From Arenicella xantha (GTDB lineage: Bacteria > Pseudomonadota > Gammaproteobacteria > Arenicellales > Arenicellaceae), in NCBI RefSeq assembly GCF_003315245.1, contig NZ_QNRT01000002.1:1-64000 (forward strand): a stretch of DNA of 64,000 nucleotides, given 5' to 3'. Positions 18,201 to 35,956 of this stretch are shown here, piece after piece; the first letter of the stretch is position 1, and each line of letters begins with the position of its first letter. The notes under the pieces are model-generated. The model was given only the letters and a program-made list of their open reading frames with translations. It searched no databases and was not told the origin of the DNA. A program made the position numbers and the translations under genes.

Positions 18201-18364
18201 GCAGGTTACATCCATGGACCAGTGGTCTTGTCCACACATGCGGTAGATCCGTAACCTGCCACCACGCTTGTTTGGCGGAAGACCCACCGAAGTTGCTTTT
18301 TATCCCGCGGCGTCTTAGTTCCGCGGTCTTAGTTCCGCGCTCTTAGTTCCGTGGTCTTAGTTCC
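18201..18364. repeat. Inverted repeat and 14-bp tandem repeat upstream of the GST pair
   Basis: GCAGGTTAC (18201-18209) and GTAACCTGC (18251-18259) form a 9-bp inverted repeat enclosing a further self-complementary stretch. After it, TCTTAGTTCC occurs four times at exact 14-bp spacing (18313, 18327, 18341, 18355), separated by CGCGG-like linkers. The following GST gene starts at 18452, so these may belong to its control region or to an unstable non-coding block. Confidence 0.6.
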
Positions 18365-28748: not shown

Positions 28749-28805
28749 ACTACAAAATGGCACTACAAAATGGCACTGCAAAATGACACTGCAAAATGAC
28801 ACTAC
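28749..28805. repeat. 13-bp tandem repeat, 4.4 copies
   Basis: ACTACAAAATGGC occurs at 28749-28761 and 28762-28774, and the variant ACTGCAAAATGAC at 28775-28787 and 28788-28800, followed by ACTAC. A 13-bp unit shifts frame with each copy, so it does not encode a peptide repeat. It abuts the decayed anchor-Q gene and probably arose by slippage. Confidence 0.8.
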
Positions 28806-29253: not shown

Positions 29254-30012
29254 ATGGACAAGAATTCAAATAAACCGACCCATCATGCCGCGCAAAACTC
29301 ACTAGCGGATGCACAGCCAATCGCTACTGATCGACGTAAAGCGGTGCGCACTATTTTGGCCGGTAGCGGAATAACGGCGGCGGCAACAGTAGGTAATTGG
29401 TCGAAACCACTACTCGATGCAGTGATATTGCCGGCCCACGCACAAACTTCAGTCGTCTCCGTAGTGCTTGCTGGTAATGTTGGCTTAACGCCAGTTGTTA
29501 ATAACACTAGTCAAAAAACGAATGGTATTCTTGATTTTTTCGTTGGGACTGCCTATGCACAAGAGAGTGAGCCAAATTTGGGCGGCGCATGTCTGACAAT
29601 GAGCATCACCGGCAGCGTGTTTACAGTTGATTTAGAGTTTGTTGCGGAACCAAAGATCATCATCGAAGGCGCGGTGTCAGGCAATGCTTTTACTGGCAGC
29701 GGACAAGGTGTCACAATTTCGGGTACCGTCGACCTTAGCCCTAGCGCTGAAACCGCAGTAGGCAACATAAGTAATTCTAGCAGCTCATTTGATTTTTCAA
29801 TTAATTCAAATGCAGGTGCTTGCGAGGCGATCGCTCCGACTACGACTAGTGCTCCGACCACGACCAGTGCGCCGACTACGACCAGTGCCCCGACTACGAC
29901 CAGTGCTCCGACTACGACCAGTGCCCCGACTACGACCAGTGCCCCGACTACGACCAGTGCCCCGACTACGACTAGTGCCCCGACTACGACGCCATCACCG
30001 GCCAACAGCTAA
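29254..30012 (+). CDS. Tat-exported protein with C-terminal mucin-like (APTTTS)n domain
   Basis: 252 residues. A twin-arginine signal lies at 27-63 (DRRKAVRTILAGSG ... LPAHAQTS; the WSKP...LPAHAQ ending is a known pattern in such exported proteins). The middle (about 64-192) is Gly/Ser/Val-rich and beta-like, with a Cys pair (CLTMSITGS ... AGACEA). Residues 194-247 are nine consecutive hexapeptides APTTTS, the last ending in PSP. That sequence has the Pro-spaced Thr/Ser clusters of eukaryotic mucin tandem repeats. The stop is 13 bp before a two-domain glycosyltransferase gene, which makes this protein a likely glycosylation substrate. No homologous family recognised. Confidence 0.8.
   Translation: MDKNSNKPTHHAAQNSLADAQPIATDRRKAVRTILAGSGITAAATVGNWSKPLLDAVILPAHAQTSVVSVVLAGNVGLTPVVNNTSQKTNGILDFFVGTAYAQESEPNLGGACLTMSITGSVFTVDLEFVAEPKIIIEGAVSGNAFTGSGQGVTISGTVDLSPSAETAVGNISNSSSSFDFSINSNAGACEAIAPTTTSAPTTTSAPTTTSAPTTTSAPTTTSAPTTTSAPTTTSAPTTTSAPTTTPSPANS
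29833..29994 (+). repeat. 18-bp tandem repeat, nine copies, coding for APTTTS
   Basis: Nine adjacent 18-bp units of the form GC(N)CCGACTACGACCAGT, differing mainly at synonymous positions, at 29833, 29851, 29869 and onward to 29994. The last unit ends differently (ACGCCA). The unit is a multiple of three, so slippage would change the number of Thr-rich hexapeptides without breaking the frame. Long frames on the other strand and in the +2 frame across this block are by-products of the repeat. Confidence 0.95.
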
Positions 30013-30025
30013 CTATTCTGAGTCG

Positions 30026-32446
30026 ATGCCTGAATCAATATCTAAAGCAATTTGTCTTGCCATATTCATCAAGCCAAATACGCAAATATCTGAAGCCTCG
30101 TTGCTCACTGCTAAGCCATTTATTGACCGTTGGATCATTAGCGGTGAAAGCTTGGAAGCGCAACAAGAGGGTCTTATCCGTAACGCGCTCGCGGGGGTCG
30201 AAGGTCATTTCGTAGGCAATGCTAAAAATGACTACGGCCAAGCAAAATGCGCATTACTGCGTGAAGCACAACTATCTGCCGATTGGGTTTTAATGCTCGA
30301 TGCAAACGAAGAACTTTGTGTTTTTACGCCGAGGCTGCAAATTCCTGAAGCTGCTGACATTGGCTTGCTCGATATAAAAAGAGGTAAATCGGTCACCTCC
30401 GAGGCAAGATTATTTAGCGCCAACGCTAAGGTAACATTTAGCTATCCGGTGGCAGAGTATCCGAGCGCAAATGGCGACAACTCGGTTCAGGTATCAGGCT
30501 GCGCAGTACGCAGTCATACGCCATCACAAAGCTTGCTTGAAGATCGTGTAGTTAACCGGTTTCTGCTCGATTCGGTACTCGGAAAATACCCGCGAAGTGC
30601 TGAGCTATCGTTGTTATTAGGCAAGGTTGAACTTGCGAATGGTCAGCTTAAACCAGCGTTGCTGCACTTTGAGGCGATTCGAGACTTAATGGCATCGGAC
30701 ACAATTTCATGGACGGCTCACTATTTAGCTGGCGTGATTTGTTCCGCTCAACGAAACCTAGTTCGCGCAATCTATCACTGGCAAGCGGCATTTGATCTTA
30801 TGCCCGATCGAGCAGAACCACTGATGCGGCTCGCTGAATTACACTATACCGAAGAAGACTATGGCTCCGCCGCTCGGCTCACGGCCGAGATAGCCGACAT
30901 GGATCGACCCGTCTCGGTGGATTACTACGAACCTGATATTTATAGGTATACAGCGGAGGTTTTAAAAGCACACGCTTGGCATAAGTTAGGTCGAAGTGAA
31001 GAGGCTATTGCATGTCTGAATGACCTGATAGCGCCGCAGTTGAATCTCAGCGTCAAGACTGACGTGCGCGTGGCATTAGGTGATATTGAGCACGAAGTAG
31101 CCTTAGCAAGCGCCGAAAAAGAGACGTCGGCTCAAGTAGGCCAAACGAGCAACTGTCAAACCCTGACGACACAAGCATCATCCCCCTACCCGTCACCTCA
31201 GCCAAAGCTTACGATTGGTATGGCTACCCACGACGACTACGATGGCGTTTACTTTAGTGTAATGAGCTTGGTGCTGTATCACCGCGACCACTTGAACGAC
31301 GTTGAGATTCTCATCATCGACAACAACCCAGATTCTAAACATGGTGAAGCGGTTCGCGGCTTGGCTCAGCGAGTTAAACAGATTCGGTATGTTGCTGCGC
31401 AAGAGTATCGTGGAACGGCCATTCGTGAACGAGTGTTTCAGGAAGCAAAAGGCAAATACGTTCTCTGTATGGATTGTCATGTATTTCTGCACACGGGCTC
31501 ATTGGGCCGTTTGATCGACTACTTTGATGCGAATCCAAATTCTCCTGATATTCTACACGGCCCAATTTATTACGACGATCACAATAACTTCAGTACGCAC
31601 ATGACCGCAGATTGGTATGACGGTTTTTACGGGCGTTGGGGTAGTAATCCGCAAGGTGGCAATTCTGACAACCCGCCCTTTGAAATACCAATGCAAGGGC
31701 TTGGACTGTTTGCTTGTGTCAAGTCTCAGTGGCCAGGCTTTAATCTAAAGTTTCGCGGCTTTGGCGGCGAAGAAGGCTATATTCATGAAAAATTCCGTCA
31801 ACGCGGTGGCAGAGCTCTGTGCTTACCATTCTTACGTTGGACACATAGATTTGACCGCCCTAATTCACCAACTTATACCAACTCATGGGAAGATCGTATT
31901 CGAAACTACCTTATTGGATGGGATGAGCTAGGCTTGGATACCAGCCAAATTTTACAACACTTTTCGCAGACGCTCGGAGAGGTTAATACCAGCGCGAATT
32001 ACGCGCGCTTTCTAACCGAGAAACAGAGCCCACTTTGGGGCTACGACACCGTTTACCTGTATTCCGCTATCCCTTTTGGCTCAGAGGTTCTAACTGGTTT
32101 AGGTGTTCAGAGGATCATTCAAACAGCATCGTCTAAAGATATGCTGACAAGCTTATTGCGTCAGTCAGTAAAGCACGGCCTCCCCAATGTATTGGTACTG
32201 ATAGCGAAAACTGATAGCAAGTTGGAGTTTGAAACAGCGATTTATAATTCACTTCCCAACTTCGAAAGCTTTCAAACAGGTGGCGACGATATTCAAATTA
32301 TTGAGTCGCCTAAGTTCCAAGCAAATTTGATCACATCTGCAGGATTTTTAACGGCTGCTGATTGCATAACGGAAGAATGTTTGTTGAGTGCTGACAAGTT
32401 ACATAAAATGTCGACGAGTTTTCGTGAATTGATGGTGGATGTATGA
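30026..32446 (+). CDS. Bimodular TPR-linked glycosyltransferase, C-terminal module GT2/GT27-like
   Basis: 806 residues from the ATG at 30026; the longer open frame runs back into the APTTTS repeat and is not coding. Residues 5-165 look like a GT-A domain of the SunS/TPR-transferase sort, with DANEEL (92-97) as the metal-site motif. About 190-360 are TPR-like helices. Residues 393-640 are a second GT-A domain: TIGMATHDDYD, IIDNNPDS (nucleotide site), CMDCHV (D483-C-H485, a DxH metal motif), GFGGEEGYIHEKFRQRGG (578-595) and RWTHRFDRP. DxH plus a GGEE..-type helix plus a following His is the arrangement in polypeptide GalNAc-transferases. It overlaps the next gene by ATGA and lies 13 bp after a mucin-like protein gene. 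Confidence 0.85.
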   Translation: MPESISKAICLAIFIKPNTQISEASLLTAKPFIDRWIISGESLEAQQEGLIRNALAGVEGHFVGNAKNDYGQAKCALLREAQLSADWVLMLDANEELCVFTPRLQIPEAADIGLLDIKRGKSVTSEARLFSANAKVTFSYPVAEYPSANGDNSVQVSGCAVRSHTPSQSLLEDRVVNRFLLDSVLGKYPRSAELSLLLGKVELANGQLKPALLHFEAIRDLMASDTISWTAHYLAGVICSAQRNLVRAIYHWQAAFDLMPDRAEPLMRLAELHYTEEDYGSAARLTAEIADMDRPVSVDYYEPDIYRYTAEVLKAHAWHKLGRSEEAIACLNDLIAPQLNLSVKTDVRVALGDIEHEVALASAEKETSAQVGQTSNCQTLTTQASSPYPSPQPKLTIGMATHDDYDGVYFSVMSLVLYHRDHLNDVEILIIDNNPDSKHGEAVRGLAQRVKQIRYVAAQEYRGTAIRERVFQEAKGKYVLCMDCHVFLHTGSLGRLIDYFDANPNSPDILHGPIYYDDHNNFSTHMTADWYDGFYGRWGSNPQGGNSDNPPFEIPMQGLGLFACVKSQWPGFNLKFRGFGGEEGYIHEKFRQRGGRALCLPFLRWTHRFDRPNSPTYTNSWEDRIRNYLIGWDELGLDTSQILQHFSQTLGEVNTSANYARFLTEKQSPLWGYDTVYLYSAIPFGSEVLTGLGVQRIIQTASSKDMLTSLLRQSVKHGLPNVLVLIAKTDSKLEFETAIYNSLPNFESFQTGGDDIQIIESPKFQANLITSAGFLTAADCITEECLLSADKLHKMSTSFRELMVDV

Positions 32447-33159
32447 TTACCTACGTATGTTCATATTGGTTGTCGCCAGCAGCTGGAGAAGCGAGAGAAG
32501 CCGAATTGAAACGCTATTTCGACTTACATTGCTATTTAAAACAGCGCATGGGGAGTCAGCAAATAATTTTAACTAATTTGGATTATCCCGGCGCCATAGA
32601 GTTAAAGGTTCCGCCAAATTTCACCGAGAAATATGCTTTTTTTGCACGATACTTTGGCCTCAAACAACTAATTGAAAGTGGTGTTCAATTACCTATTTGC
32701 TTACACGATCATGACTTTTTTAATGCGAAAGACTTACCCTATGACGAAAACGCAATCCTAGTGGGTTCAATGGTGGATGGATACTTTTCGGAGCAAGCGG
32801 TTGTTTATCCAGAAATAGCTAAGCAGGCGATTATGGCGTTTACTGACAAGTTGTGGAGCTTAGACTTCACTGCCGGATTACAATATGGCTATGGAACGGA
32901 AGTGCGTCATGAAGGGCTGTATTCGACCGAGCAAACGATGAGTGACTTGGCCCTACAACCCTTTAAGTCAATACCGATGCGCCAAGGGTTTAACGTTAAA
33001 GACCAAGTAAGTTTCGATATTGTGTCGCACCACTCACTTGATGCGGCATCTATTGCGAGCACAGAGATCCCATCTGGGTCGCACGGGATTCATGGGCATT
33101 TGAACAAAGGTCAAGCCACCGAGGTAATGCTCGATTGGCTTGCGGAAAATTTGAGCTAG
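32443..33159 (+). CDS. Putative glycosyltransferase-like protein with DxD motif
   Basis: 238 residues, no named family recognised. The segment VQLPICLHDHDFF (D89-H-D91) follows a strand and looks like the DxD metal site of a GT-A fold; it is preceded by FARYFGLKQLIESG, as in capsular and other small sugar transferases. A late HHSLDAAS and HGIHGHL region is His-rich. No signal or membrane segment. It overlaps the upstream glycosyltransferase gene by 4 bp, which indicates that the two products work together, for instance by extending the same glycan. Confidence 0.65.
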   Translation: MITYVCSYWLSPAAGEAREAELKRYFDLHCYLKQRMGSQQIILTNLDYPGAIELKVPPNFTEKYAFFARYFGLKQLIESGVQLPICLHDHDFFNAKDLPYDENAILVGSMVDGYFSEQAVVYPEIAKQAIMAFTDKLWSLDFTAGLQYGYGTEVRHEGLYSTEQTMSDLALQPFKSIPMRQGFNVKDQVSFDIVSHHSLDAASIASTEIPSGSHGIHGHLNKGQATEVMLDWLAENLS

Positions 33160-33384: not shown

Positions 33385-33975
33385 GTGGCTGACAGAGTAA
33401 ATGATAGTGATGCAGCTCAACATAACAACTACCGCTCAATTGAAGACGATAAACTTTTGAATTTAATTGGAGACAAAAAAGACCGTATGGCGTTGACTGA
33501 GCTCTATGAGCGCTACCAGCGGCCGGTCAGGAATTTTTTGTTGCGCGGCATGCGCGAAGTCAAATTAATCGACGAAGTCTATAACGACGTAATGCTTACT
33601 ATTTGGCACAAGGCAAATAGTTTTCGAGGCGAGTCAAAGGTGTCGACTTGGATATTTTCCATTGCGTATCGGCAGCGTATGGCTCACTCACGAAAAGAAA
33701 GCAAGCACGCGCAGCTGAGCGCAGTCGAACAACAGCTTGAGTTCGAGACTGATTCCCATGTATCGCAAGCTGAAACACTGCAAGCGGCAATGGCGGAGTT
33801 ATCGGAACATCACAGGGCCGTTATTGAATTAATGTATTTTCATGGGTACAGCACAAGTGAAATTGGGGTCATCTTAGCTTGCCCTCAAAACACCGTTAAA
33901 ACGCGGTTATTTCATGCGCGAAAAAAACTTAAAGCAACCTTAGAGGTCGGCTATTCAATGCTGGGGGCTCATTGA
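33385..33975 (+). CDS. ECF-type RNA polymerase sigma factor
   Basis: 196 residues with a GTG start; AGGA is 6 nt upstream. Region 2 spans about 28-100 (ALTELYERYQRPVRNFLLR, DEVYNDVMLTIWHKANSFRG, KVSTWIFSIAYRQRM). Region 4 spans about 135-185 (ELSEHHRAVIELMYFHGYST, SEIGVILACPQNTVKTRLFH, ARKKLK). It directs RNA polymerase to a specific promoter set. The stop shares a base with the ATG of the next gene (TGATG), a membrane protein that is probably its anti-sigma factor. Length is normal for the family. Confidence 0.93.
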   Translation: MADRVNDSDAAQHNNYRSIEDDKLLNLIGDKKDRMALTELYERYQRPVRNFLLRGMREVKLIDEVYNDVMLTIWHKANSFRGESKVSTWIFSIAYRQRMAHSRKESKHAQLSAVEQQLEFETDSHVSQAETLQAAMAELSEHHRAVIELMYFHGYSTSEIGVILACPQNTVKTRLFHARKKLKATLEVGYSMLGAH

Positions 33976-34661
33976 TGAAAAATATTAAAGCGAGTGAACA
34001 TAGTGATATTTTTAGCGAATCTATGATTGTCGACTATGTCGGAGGTCACATTGAAGACGATACAGTACGTGCCGACTTTGAAAAAAAGTTAGCAAATAAC
34101 GCAAGGCTTAAGCGAGCTGTCGATGAAGAACGTCAATTGCGAGATGCCCTGCACTCACTTGAGCACGCCAGCGCTGAGCACGAAGTTACTAGTAGCGAAG
34201 ATGGGCTTGAGAAGCTGTTCGCGAAACTAGATGAGGTAGAAGACGACGCTGCTATTCAGCAACACCAAGACTCTAAAACTGGTTTCAGGGTTGTTAGTCG
34301 GAACTGGTTCGCTGGCGCTGGCATCGCCGCTAGCTTAGCGTTTGTCGCCATGCTGTTGGTTGGGACCGAGGTGACTACGACTACTTCTGATTTCACGCTA
34401 CTAAGTGATCCACAAAGTGCGACTCAGGCGGATTTTAATGACTTGGTTAAAGCTCGCCGAGTTGCTCAAGTGTGGCTTGTGAATGAATTGCCGGCGGCTG
34501 AATTGACTCGTCTTTTTGGTCAATATCAGCTTACCTTGATTAGCCGTGCCGGCGCGGCCTGGATCGTTGCATCGTCGACTCCGCTGTCTGACCAACAGTT
34601 AACACAACTTGAAGCCGTAGCGAGTTTCAAACAGGTCAGTCTGATCTCGTACAATAACTAA
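33975..34661 (+). CDS. Probable membrane-bound anti-sigma factor
   Basis: 228 residues from the ATG at 33975. The N-terminal about 110 residues are acidic and helical, beginning with MIVDYVGGHIEDD, typical of an anti-sigma-like cytoplasmic domain, but without the zinc HxxxCxxC motif. A single transmembrane helix lies at about 113-131 (WFAGAGIAASLAFVAMLLVG). The outer part (about 135-228) is a small alpha/beta domain (VAQVWLVNELPAAELTRLF, GAAWIVASSTPLSDQQLTQL). Coupling to the sigma gene and the single-span layout support the role. The outer domain could be the sensor or a protease target, and a protease gene follows. Confidence 0.78.
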   Translation: MKNIKASEHSDIFSESMIVDYVGGHIEDDTVRADFEKKLANNARLKRAVDEERQLRDALHSLEHASAEHEVTSSEDGLEKLFAKLDEVEDDAAIQQHQDSKTGFRVVSRNWFAGAGIAASLAFVAMLLVGTEVTTTTSDFTLLSDPQSATQADFNDLVKARRVAQVWLVNELPAAELTRLFGQYQLTLISRAGAAWIVASSTPLSDQQLTQLEAVASFKQVSLISYNN

Positions 34662-34702
34662 ACAAGTGTGAGTAATTACACGCAAAGCAACGGTATTGAT
34701 AA

Positions 34703-35956
34703 GTGAATATATATAGCAAAGTTTTATTAGCTATTGTGGTTGGTATATCGTCGGTTTCAATTAATGCTCAACCGCAGACTTCTGAGTGGGTTGTGGTGCT
34801 CAATGACCCTCGCCCTGAACGCCTTAAAGGTTGGCAACGTGATCAATACTCGGGAGATGGTCATTATCGCAATGCTTTAGAACTCAAGCGCGCTAGCCGA
34901 CGCGTAGCCGATAAACATGATCTGGCCATTCGTGCAGAGTGGTTTATAGAAAGTCTTGGGGTTTACTGTTTGGTCGCGGCGATTAATGGCGATCAAGCGC
35001 TAACCTTGGATCGTTTAAGATCGGACGCTAATGTGAAGTCAGTGCAAGCATCAAACAGCTTCGAGCTGTTACGAGCCGAAATATTACCCGTTGTTGAACT
35101 CGCTAGCATCGATGCGAAGTTGTCTTCTAACCTAACAAAGCTACTCGCTCCGCCAGAGTTGCAACTGCCCCCATCTATTGATGGGCGTAGAGTTGCCATC
35201 GCATTGGTGGACTCAGCGGTGGACGATACCCATCCTGAAATTAGCAAGCAGGTCATTAAAAACCTTGATTTTGTTGATGATGAGAACTATCCAGCCACTA
35301 CTGATGTACACGGAACCGCAGTAGCTGGAGTAATTGTCGCTGATCAAACCAGTGATATTGGCGTTACTGGCGTAGCGCCTGGCGCAAGCCTCTCGGCGTA
35401 TCGAGGTTGTTGGGAGCGCGCAGAGAGTCATACTGGGGCACGTGATGCTACAAATTGCAACACCCTAACTCTCGCGCGCGCTTTGGACGCGGTAGCGATG
35501 AGCAACGAGGCAGACATTCTAAATTTGAGTCTGTCTGGCCCCAAAGATGAATTACTAGATCAGCTTGTGAAACAGATTGTGTCACAGGGCACGATAGTGG
35601 TCATTGCTTTTGACCCGACCCGATTAGCCACCGATCGCTTTCCGTCAGTCTCAACTGGCGTAGTGACGGTTCGCGCTGATTCCCTCAATCAGGACCAGAC
35701 AGAGATTTTTTCTGCGCCCGGTGAAAAAATAGTGGCTGCACCTCGAAAACGTGCCAACTTTATGCAGGGCCACTCGGTTGCAGCGGCTTATACCAGCGGT
35801 ATATTGGCGCTATGTATACAAGTTGAAGAACAGTTAAATAAGAAGATTTGCACACCTGAGCTCTTTGCGCAACTCAGTCGTAATAACACCAACAACCTAC
35901 ATCAACTCGCCAACGAGTTAGCTAAGAAATTAGATTCTGCAACCCCAGATTATTAG
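34703..35956 (+). CDS. Subtilisin-like (S8) protease with Asp at the oxyanion-hole position
   Basis: 417 residues, GTG start, signal peptide to about residue 22 (VGISSVSINA). Residues about 28-120 resemble an I9-type propeptide. The catalytic domain has D170 (IALVDSAVDDTHP), H203 (DVHGTAVAGVI) and S358 (QGHSVAAAYTSGIL). The usual oxyanion Asn in 'AAGN' is replaced: GTIVVIAFDP puts Asp304 there. The Thr normally before the catalytic Ser is His. Proprotein convertase 2 also has Asp at this site and stays active, so the change does not prove loss of activity. It follows the sigma/anti-sigma pair by 41 bp, which suggests it acts on the anti-sigma factor or on an exported target of the regulon. 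Confidence 0.88.
   Translation: MNIYSKVLLAIVVGISSVSINAQPQTSEWVVVLNDPRPERLKGWQRDQYSGDGHYRNALELKRASRRVADKHDLAIRAEWFIESLGVYCLVAAINGDQALTLDRLRSDANVKSVQASNSFELLRAEILPVVELASIDAKLSSNLTKLLAPPELQLPPSIDGRRVAIALVDSAVDDTHPEISKQVIKNLDFVDDENYPATTDVHGTAVAGVIVADQTSDIGVTGVAPGASLSAYRGCWERAESHTGARDATNCNTLTLARALDAVAMSNEADILNLSLSGPKDELLDQLVKQIVSQGTIVVIAFDPTRLATDRFPSVSTGVVTVRADSLNQDQTEIFSAPGEKIVAAPRKRANFMQGHSVAAAYTSGILALCIQVEEQLNKKICTPELFAQLSRNNTNNLHQLANELAKKLDSATPDY

Follow-up and report, generated by a model that had tools for sequence, protein, structure and literature searches.

The 64,000-nucleotide stretch of Arenicella xantha DNA analyzed here (positions 1 to 64,000 of contig NZ_QNRT01000002.1, hereafter the window; the genome, G000, comprises 4.44 Mb) contains three closely spaced genes, P0001, P0002 and P0003, which we examined as a candidate unit for the glycosylation of a mucin-like protein. 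P0001 carries a twin-arginine (RR) signal resembling those of the twin-arginine translocation (Tat) pathway as well as a threonine-rich tail, and P0002 is a multidomain glycosyltransferase (GT). This three-gene layout had been proposed in the original prediction and is borne out with correct coordinates: 13 bp separate P0001 from P0002, which has 806 residues, and P0003 overlaps P0002 by 4 bp (Table 1). The tail, described there as nine APTTTS hexapeptides, indeed comprises nine APTTT units, but only eight of them read APTTTS and the ninth is APTTTP. The motifs listed for P0002 could all be located: DxH corresponds to D483-C484-H485, GGEEGYIHEKFRQRGG occupies residues 580-595, and RWTHRFDRP residues 604-612.

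Table 1. Features of the P0001-P0003 unit, with positions counted in the window.
Feature	Position	Strand	Description
P0001	29254..30012	+	252 aa; RR-signal (Tat-like) protein with middle part and mucin-like tail; presumed acceptor; T-rich-tailed orthologues in L027, L028, L029
Tat-like signal of P0001	29332..29445	+	R27R28 to AHA63|Q64; cleavage site predicted from sequence
Thr-rich tail of P0001, nine APTTT units (aa 194-246)	29833..29991	+	
P0002	30026..32446	+	806-aa multidomain glycosyltransferase; ATG start
N-terminal GT2-like module of P0002, probably degenerate	30047..30400 (limits approximate)	+	From alignment
TPR repeats of P0002 (aa 180-293)	30563..30904	+	Pfam TPR_19, TPR_2; further TPR match in NCBIfam scan
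Core GT domain of P0002 (aa 395-680), GT27-like	31208..32065	+	Pfam GT2 1.4e-10; model of aa 379-695; Foldseek
DxH motif of P0002, D483-C484-H485	31472..31480	+	D and H in 103/103
GGEE of P0002 (580-583)	31763..31774	+	Aligns with WGGE of GalNAc-T7/T10
H607 of P0002	31844..31846	+	Aligns with His of GHIYRK in GalNAc-T10; kept in 102/103
C-terminal part of P0002, like a decayed GT25 domain	32066..32443	+	Alignment with GT25-type tails of relatives
P0003	32443..33159	+	238 aa; HDHD in 3/3 (P0003 and two close orthologues); putative accessory protein

In the signal region of P0001, the RR pair, a hydrophobic stretch and AHA are visible by eye; the orthologues retain the RR pair, its surroundings (DRRKAVR) depart from the textbook Tat motif, and the genome contains a TatC gene. 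P0001 matches ten places in the genome at E ≤ 1 including itself, mostly via the signal. Its tract holds 27 threonine codons and is the sole one with at least 14 threonines or serines (T/S) in 30 residues among the 60 non-overlapping open reading frames (ORFs) of at least 60 residues in the window. At the DNA level it is a near-exact 18-bp repeat with 94% matches and therefore may have grown by repeat expansion. In the tracts of L027, L038 and a second unit of the same genome described below (L026), all four threonine codons occur, an argument for selection at the protein level. The DNA pattern encoding TTTxxxTTT yields 19 matches in the 4.4 Mb genome: eight lie in P0001, five in another RR-signal protein that has a GT paralogue nearby, five in one large surface-protein-like ORF, and one elsewhere. 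We rejected a chance origin of the threonine tract because it is the only such tract in the ORFs of the window and because these matches are clustered. The surface-protein-like ORF (G000:C5:106430-113000; L214:5430-12000) comprises 2190 residues, is cut by the end of its stretch and has a threonine run of its own; no match to the GT family was found on its contig, C5.

The core domain of P0002 matches Pfam PF00535 (Glycosyltransferase family 2) with 41.8 bits against a cut-off of 23.3, as do, at E ≤ 0.001, all 61 proteins of a set consisting of P0002 and 60 of its 66 non-redundant relatives, the six cut at a contig end being left out. An AlphaFold2 model of residues 379-695 reached a predicted local distance difference test score (pLDDT) of 92.6 and a predicted TM-score of 0.89, and a Foldseek comparison with the PDB returned GT27 chains in 50 of the best 50 matches listed (best E 1.1e-14, query TM-score 0.62, identities 13-19%), among them T2, T10, T4, T12, T7, T1, Drosophila PGANT9 and Toxoplasma T3. 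Firm clustering of the domain with non-protein transferases, the outcome named beforehand as a refutation of the glycosylation idea, thus did not occur. Within BFVD, the best fold match among those listed is the uncultured Caudovirales protein A0A6J7WYC1 (query TM-score 0.76, 32% identity), which is named merely as a GTA-type domain protein and is likely a member of the P0002 GT family.

The motifs point in the same direction. Among 177,635 PDB sequences, GalNAc-T10 and T7 were the only enzymes reached at E ≤ 1 by profiles of residues 545-625 and 470-640; the profile alignment sets FGGEEGYIHEKFRQRGG on WGGEQYEISFKVWMCGG and the next histidine, 25 residues after GGE, on the histidine of GHIYRK, the tryptophan of WGGE being a phenylalanine in P0002. 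For GALNT1, PMC4202792 describes a DxH motif plus a third histidine (D209, H211, H344), and it also names a ricin-like lectin domain for the GT27 family. The core domain alignment was built from 15 loci and later extended to 103 sequences (155 domain sequences cut to 102 at 80% identity): D483, H485, E583, W605, R611 and P612 are conserved in all 103, E582 and H607 in 102. The conservation of FGGEEGY and DDYDGV is partly by construction, as these were scan patterns, but DxH and RWxHRFxRP were not, and their conservation does not arise in this way. On this evidence, the core of P0002 folds like GT27 in the model and probably also works like GT27.

The DTGSTD stretch, present in L040, L041 and L096, is missing from the N-terminal GT2 module of P0002, which is therefore probably inactive. 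GT25-type tails of relatives can be aligned with the C-terminus of P0002, which looks decayed. Pfam detects GT2 in all 61 proteins, HprK_rel_A in 28, GT25 in 17, from which P0002 is absent, and PqqD in nine; fusions to LicD and sulfotransferase domains also occur. In L049, a GalE domain precedes the GT within the same ORF (317.6 bits; cut-off 262.3), and a PqqD-like part also sits within the threonine-rich protein of L100 and L101 and, as a weak match, in that of L102. The fusion in L074 was not used as evidence because of an X inside its ORF. With NCBIfam, neither HprK_rel_A nor PqqD_rel_X was matched by P0001-P0003, and relatives scanned singly remained below the curated cut-offs.

The original prediction had suggested looking for other genomes in which a threonine-rich signal protein neighbors this GT. 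Such genomes exist, and the pairing is also found in phages. Among named genomes, scanning confirmed 128 relatives, the best 80 of which were kept; 77 had a usable GT ORF, and L072, L117 and L119 were left out for want of an ORF passing the GT profile. The locus titles include Gammaproteobacteria, Hyphomicrobiales, Desulfobulbaceae, Bryobacterales, Microthrix, Saprospiraceae and Fraserbacteria. ORFs with a T/S tract (at least 14 of 30) account for 22 of 336 within 1.5 kb of the GT versus 6 of 442 beyond, and in the 66 non-redundant loci 10 of 123 rank-1 ORFs bear a tract of at least 16 of 30 (odds ratio 19 versus rank 3 or higher, p 9e-6). Using a signal profile, some of whose seeds were drawn from these very loci, we found an RR-signal ORF at most 3 kb from the GT in 36 of 77 loci and a T/S-rich part after the signal in 32, a T/S-rich tail being defined as at least 8 of 20 residues (41 of 49 ORFs). 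Many of these ORFs are tiny, consisting of signal and tail alone, and sometimes three follow one another (L064, L073, L086).

A second unit lies in the window genome itself, about 7-12 kb past the end of the window (G000:C2:70814-76489; L026:6814-12489). Its presumed acceptor (C2:70865) is the second-best relative of P0001, with RR signal and PTTT tail, and is located 2.2 kb from a GT paralogue; one gene, GT32-like by eye, stands between them. The paralogue is a fusion that combines Gly_transf_sug, PqqD and GT25 parts with the GT2 core. Among the genomes of relatives, which include two of the same genus as G000 (G009 and G010), the GT family is present in 14 of 61 at E 1e-10, two of these matching the N-terminal part only. 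A sampling of the phylum at E 1e-30 detected it in one of 398 genomes, the window's own; the family is therefore sporadic.

Does the threonine-rich tail belong to the signal family or to the neighborhood of the GT? The sample comprised 37 loci from a longer match list, reduced to 36 as L244 gave no signal. A threonine-rich tail (at least 12 T in 30) is present in seven of eight GT-adjacent signal proteins versus 2 of 28 elsewhere (p 3e-5), and with only these two unlinked cases we rejected such tails as a general habit of the signal family. The two exceptions, L237 (G024) and L242 (G010), stem from genomes that bear the GT on another contig, and the threonine-rich insert of L242 is absent from its look-alikes L004, L005, L222, L236 and L240. 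Outside the sample, the linked proteins of L031 and L038 are threonine-rich and those of L033 and L036 are not.

In viral sequences, at least 468 relatives were confirmed and the best 80 kept. Of these 80 loci, 57 have a T/S-tract ORF (at least 14 of 30) no more than 1.5 kb from the GT, and at 18 of 30 or more the tract ORFs number 49 of 418 near the GT versus 7 of 617 far from it. Among 36 non-redundant loci, 24 have a tract ORF (at least 16 of 30) within two genes; 20 of 72 rank-1 ORFs bear a tract (odds ratio 24 versus rank 3 or higher, p 6e-12), and 12 of these 20 sit 10-13 bp upstream of the GT on the same strand. A midpoint-rooted tree groups 35 of the 36 viral GTs in a single clade with support 0.98, so that the pairing is seen in two lineages; L122 falls outside. 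Among nine proteins of three viral loci that were scanned, one matched tail families and two matched primase families, and the tract protein and GT of L146 gave no family match. Given the tail-type and primase matches (L146, L165) and L122 as the only GT outside the viral clade, we rejected bacterial contamination as the source of the viral loci. Neither the GT domain of the window (E 1e-5) nor that of a viral relative (E 1e-3) matched any INPHARED phage in searches run without a positive control. As a side observation, the tract proteins preceding the GT in L126, L128, L129, L145 and L146 share a cysteine-containing C-terminal end, CNKLGF, CNKLGY or CNRLGF.

The viral enzymes also bear on the order of events. 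The HprK_rel_A and GT25 parts of many bacterial relatives, together with the adjoining P0003, could mean that another enzyme, an HprK-like module or a GT such as P0003, modifies the threonine tracts first and that the core GT only extends the glycan. We consider this unlikely: the viral GT is a stand-alone protein of 258-329 residues, the bare core domain, in 79 of 80 loci, in many of them beside a tract gene, and P0003 occurs in just three of 61 genomes.

From gene pairing, predicted fold, motif conservation and recurrence, P0001 and P0002 are likely to be the acceptor and the enzyme of a prokaryotic system for mucin-type protein O-glycosylation. The core of P0002, with a GT-A fold of the polypeptide GalNAc-transferase type, would transfer a sugar from a uridine diphosphate (UDP) donor to the threonines of the APTTT units in the cytoplasm; the TPR part may hold the acceptor, a role possibly taken in relatives by PqqD or HprK-like modules. 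Glycosylated P0001 would then be exported via Tat, a pathway that accepts bulky or folded cargo; RR signals beside a cytoplasmic enzyme therefore make sense. The stand-alone phage enzyme would glycosylate T/S-tract proteins encoded in tail modules. The proposal of a bacterial mucin-type glycosylation unit is thereby supported computationally through fold and pairing, but its description as self-contained goes further than the data, because no donor enzyme is seen in the unit.

This explanation covers more than one possible sugar, and whether the transferred sugar is one other than GalNAc (GlcNAc, Gal or Glc) is a sub-question within it. In that case, the likeness to GT27 would reflect the type of acceptor and the metal site. 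Five of the best 50 BFVD matches listed are annotated 'Glycosyltransferase, GlcNAc', and mucin-type glycans of protists typically begin with GlcNAc according to PMC8724618, whereas the GalE domain in the GT ORF of L049 hints at UDP-Gal or UDP-GalNAc. We regard the chances of another sugar as evenly balanced.

Several observations weigh against an acceptor-enzyme system of this kind. The fold match comes from one aligner, Foldseek, and the best 50 PDB matches listed. The sequence E-values for GT27 are weak and non-significant on their own (0.11-0.46 for the C-terminal-half profiles, 0.42 for the full-length one), and the latter puts general GT2 enzymes at the top via its N-terminal half, led by 6h1j, a beta-1,3-GlcNAc-transferase (E 3.6e-6), and chondroitin synthase (1.7e-4). 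No ricin-type lectin domain was found in P0002 with Pfam at E ≤ 1, nor in the 61 proteins, for which 25 of 33 families were listed. For these three reasons we speak of a domain like GT27 rather than of a GT27 member; the likeness to polypeptide GalNAc-transferases lies in the fold, the DxH motif and the GGE/His alignment. The P0001 signal matched no NCBIfam model at E ≤ 1, including TIGR01409 (Tat signal), and threonine-rich linkers are common among secreted proteins generally. The total of TTTxxxTTT matches is not raised, since the pattern reversed as a control likewise matched 19 times (12 + 7, without a listing of the places); it is the clustering that stands out. A tract ORF (at least 16 of 30) lies within two genes in just 11 of 66 non-redundant bacterial loci and is missing at that distance in 12 of 36 viral ones, no RR-signal ORF lies within 3 kb of the GT in 41 of the 77 bacterial loci, and the tails of certain GT-linked signal proteins are weak (L224, L033, L036). 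The p values of the pairing ignore kinship, and no gene for a donor sugar was seen in the unit.

Part of this could be read as a GT that builds polysaccharide or a part of lipopolysaccharide, with the threonine-rich protein an unrelated neighbor bearing a flexible linker: Pfam assigns only the general GT2 family, the full-profile matches are led by the two enzymes just named, and the fusions to GT25, LicD and sulfotransferase domains would suit such a role. Nevertheless, the pairing recurs in two lineages, threonine-rich tails occur only in GT-bearing genomes among the 36 signal proteins sampled, PqqD-like parts are found on both the enzyme and the acceptor side, and GT27 is the nearest fold among the matches listed, which makes a polysaccharide enzyme very improbable and leaves protein O-glycosylation as our preferred explanation.

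P0003 matches neither a Pfam nor an NCBIfam family at E ≤ 1, its model is poor (pLDDT 46, from a three-sequence alignment), and no copy was found in the viral contigs. A paralogue at G000:C3:211503-212207 (L249:6500-7207) stands without GT or acceptor and adjoins ABC-F-like and hydrolase-like genes; two look-alikes of these genes flank the GT unit in L029 (G004). Just downstream of P0003, window positions 33385-35956 contain genes for an extracytoplasmic function-type sigma factor, a likely anti-sigma factor and an S8 protease, all named by eye, and a sigma-factor-like gene, likewise named by eye, adjoins the acceptor in L028. Short tandem repeats are located at window positions 28749-28805 (13 bp, 4.4 copies) and 18312-18364 (14 bp, 3.8 copies).

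Among known systems, eukaryotic GT27 enzymes share with the P0002 family the nearest solved folds among the matches listed, DxH, GGE with a histidine 25 residues on (GalNAc-T10), and threonine-rich acceptors; the family differs by its bacterial and phage genes, identities of only 13-19%, the ricin-like lectin not seen, and bacterial fusions to TPR, PqqD, HprK-like or GT25 parts. The polypeptide alpha-GlcNAc-transferases of protists, which we take to be family GT60, resemble the family through the GlcNAc-annotated viral proteins among the BFVD fold matches, but P0002 has no match to the GlcNAc-family Pfam entry (presumably PF11397) at E ≤ 1, and the acceptors differ. These protist enzymes are related to the GT27 step, and the one acting on Skp1 is soluble in the cytosol (PMC8724618). 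HPr-rel-A loci, with a kinase (TIGR04352) and a PqqD chaperone (TIGR04353), resemble the family through HprK_rel_A in 28 of 61 GT proteins and, weakly, PqqD_rel_X in the acceptor of L100, whereas the window unit lacks such parts and singly scanned relatives stay below curated cut-offs. Bacterial cytoplasmic protein glycosylation, as of serine-rich repeat adhesins, flagellin and glycocins, likewise combines adjacent enzyme and acceptor genes with modification in the cytoplasm. These systems and those of mycobacteriophages use different enzyme families, whereas the RR signal and the GT27-like fold are combined here. Mycobacteriophage glycans are placed on capsid and tail-tube C-termini in PMC12619734.

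Mucin-type O-glycosylation starters have been described in animals and protists (PMC8724618 and PMC4202792), and production of mucin glycans in bacteria borrows an animal enzyme or an O-oligosaccharyltransferase (PMC13345888). In the literature, the matches listed included no GT27-like system from prokaryotes or phages, preprints and most subscription papers lying outside the scope of the search. On balance we lean towards the view that an old GT27-like family is common to bacteria and large uncultured phages and decorates the mucin-like threonine tracts of Tat-exported mini-proteins in the former and of virion proteins in the latter; the mucin-initiating enzymes of eukaryotes may derive from this family or be its sister group. 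A prokaryotic counterpart that is soluble and has its acceptors adjoining would give a small test system for threonine-tract glycosylation and, potentially, a tool for producing mucin-like proteins in bacterial hosts. Moreover, it would explain why the acceptors bear RR signals, offer a new view of phage virion glycans, and make the evolutionary origin of mucin-initiating enzymes testable.

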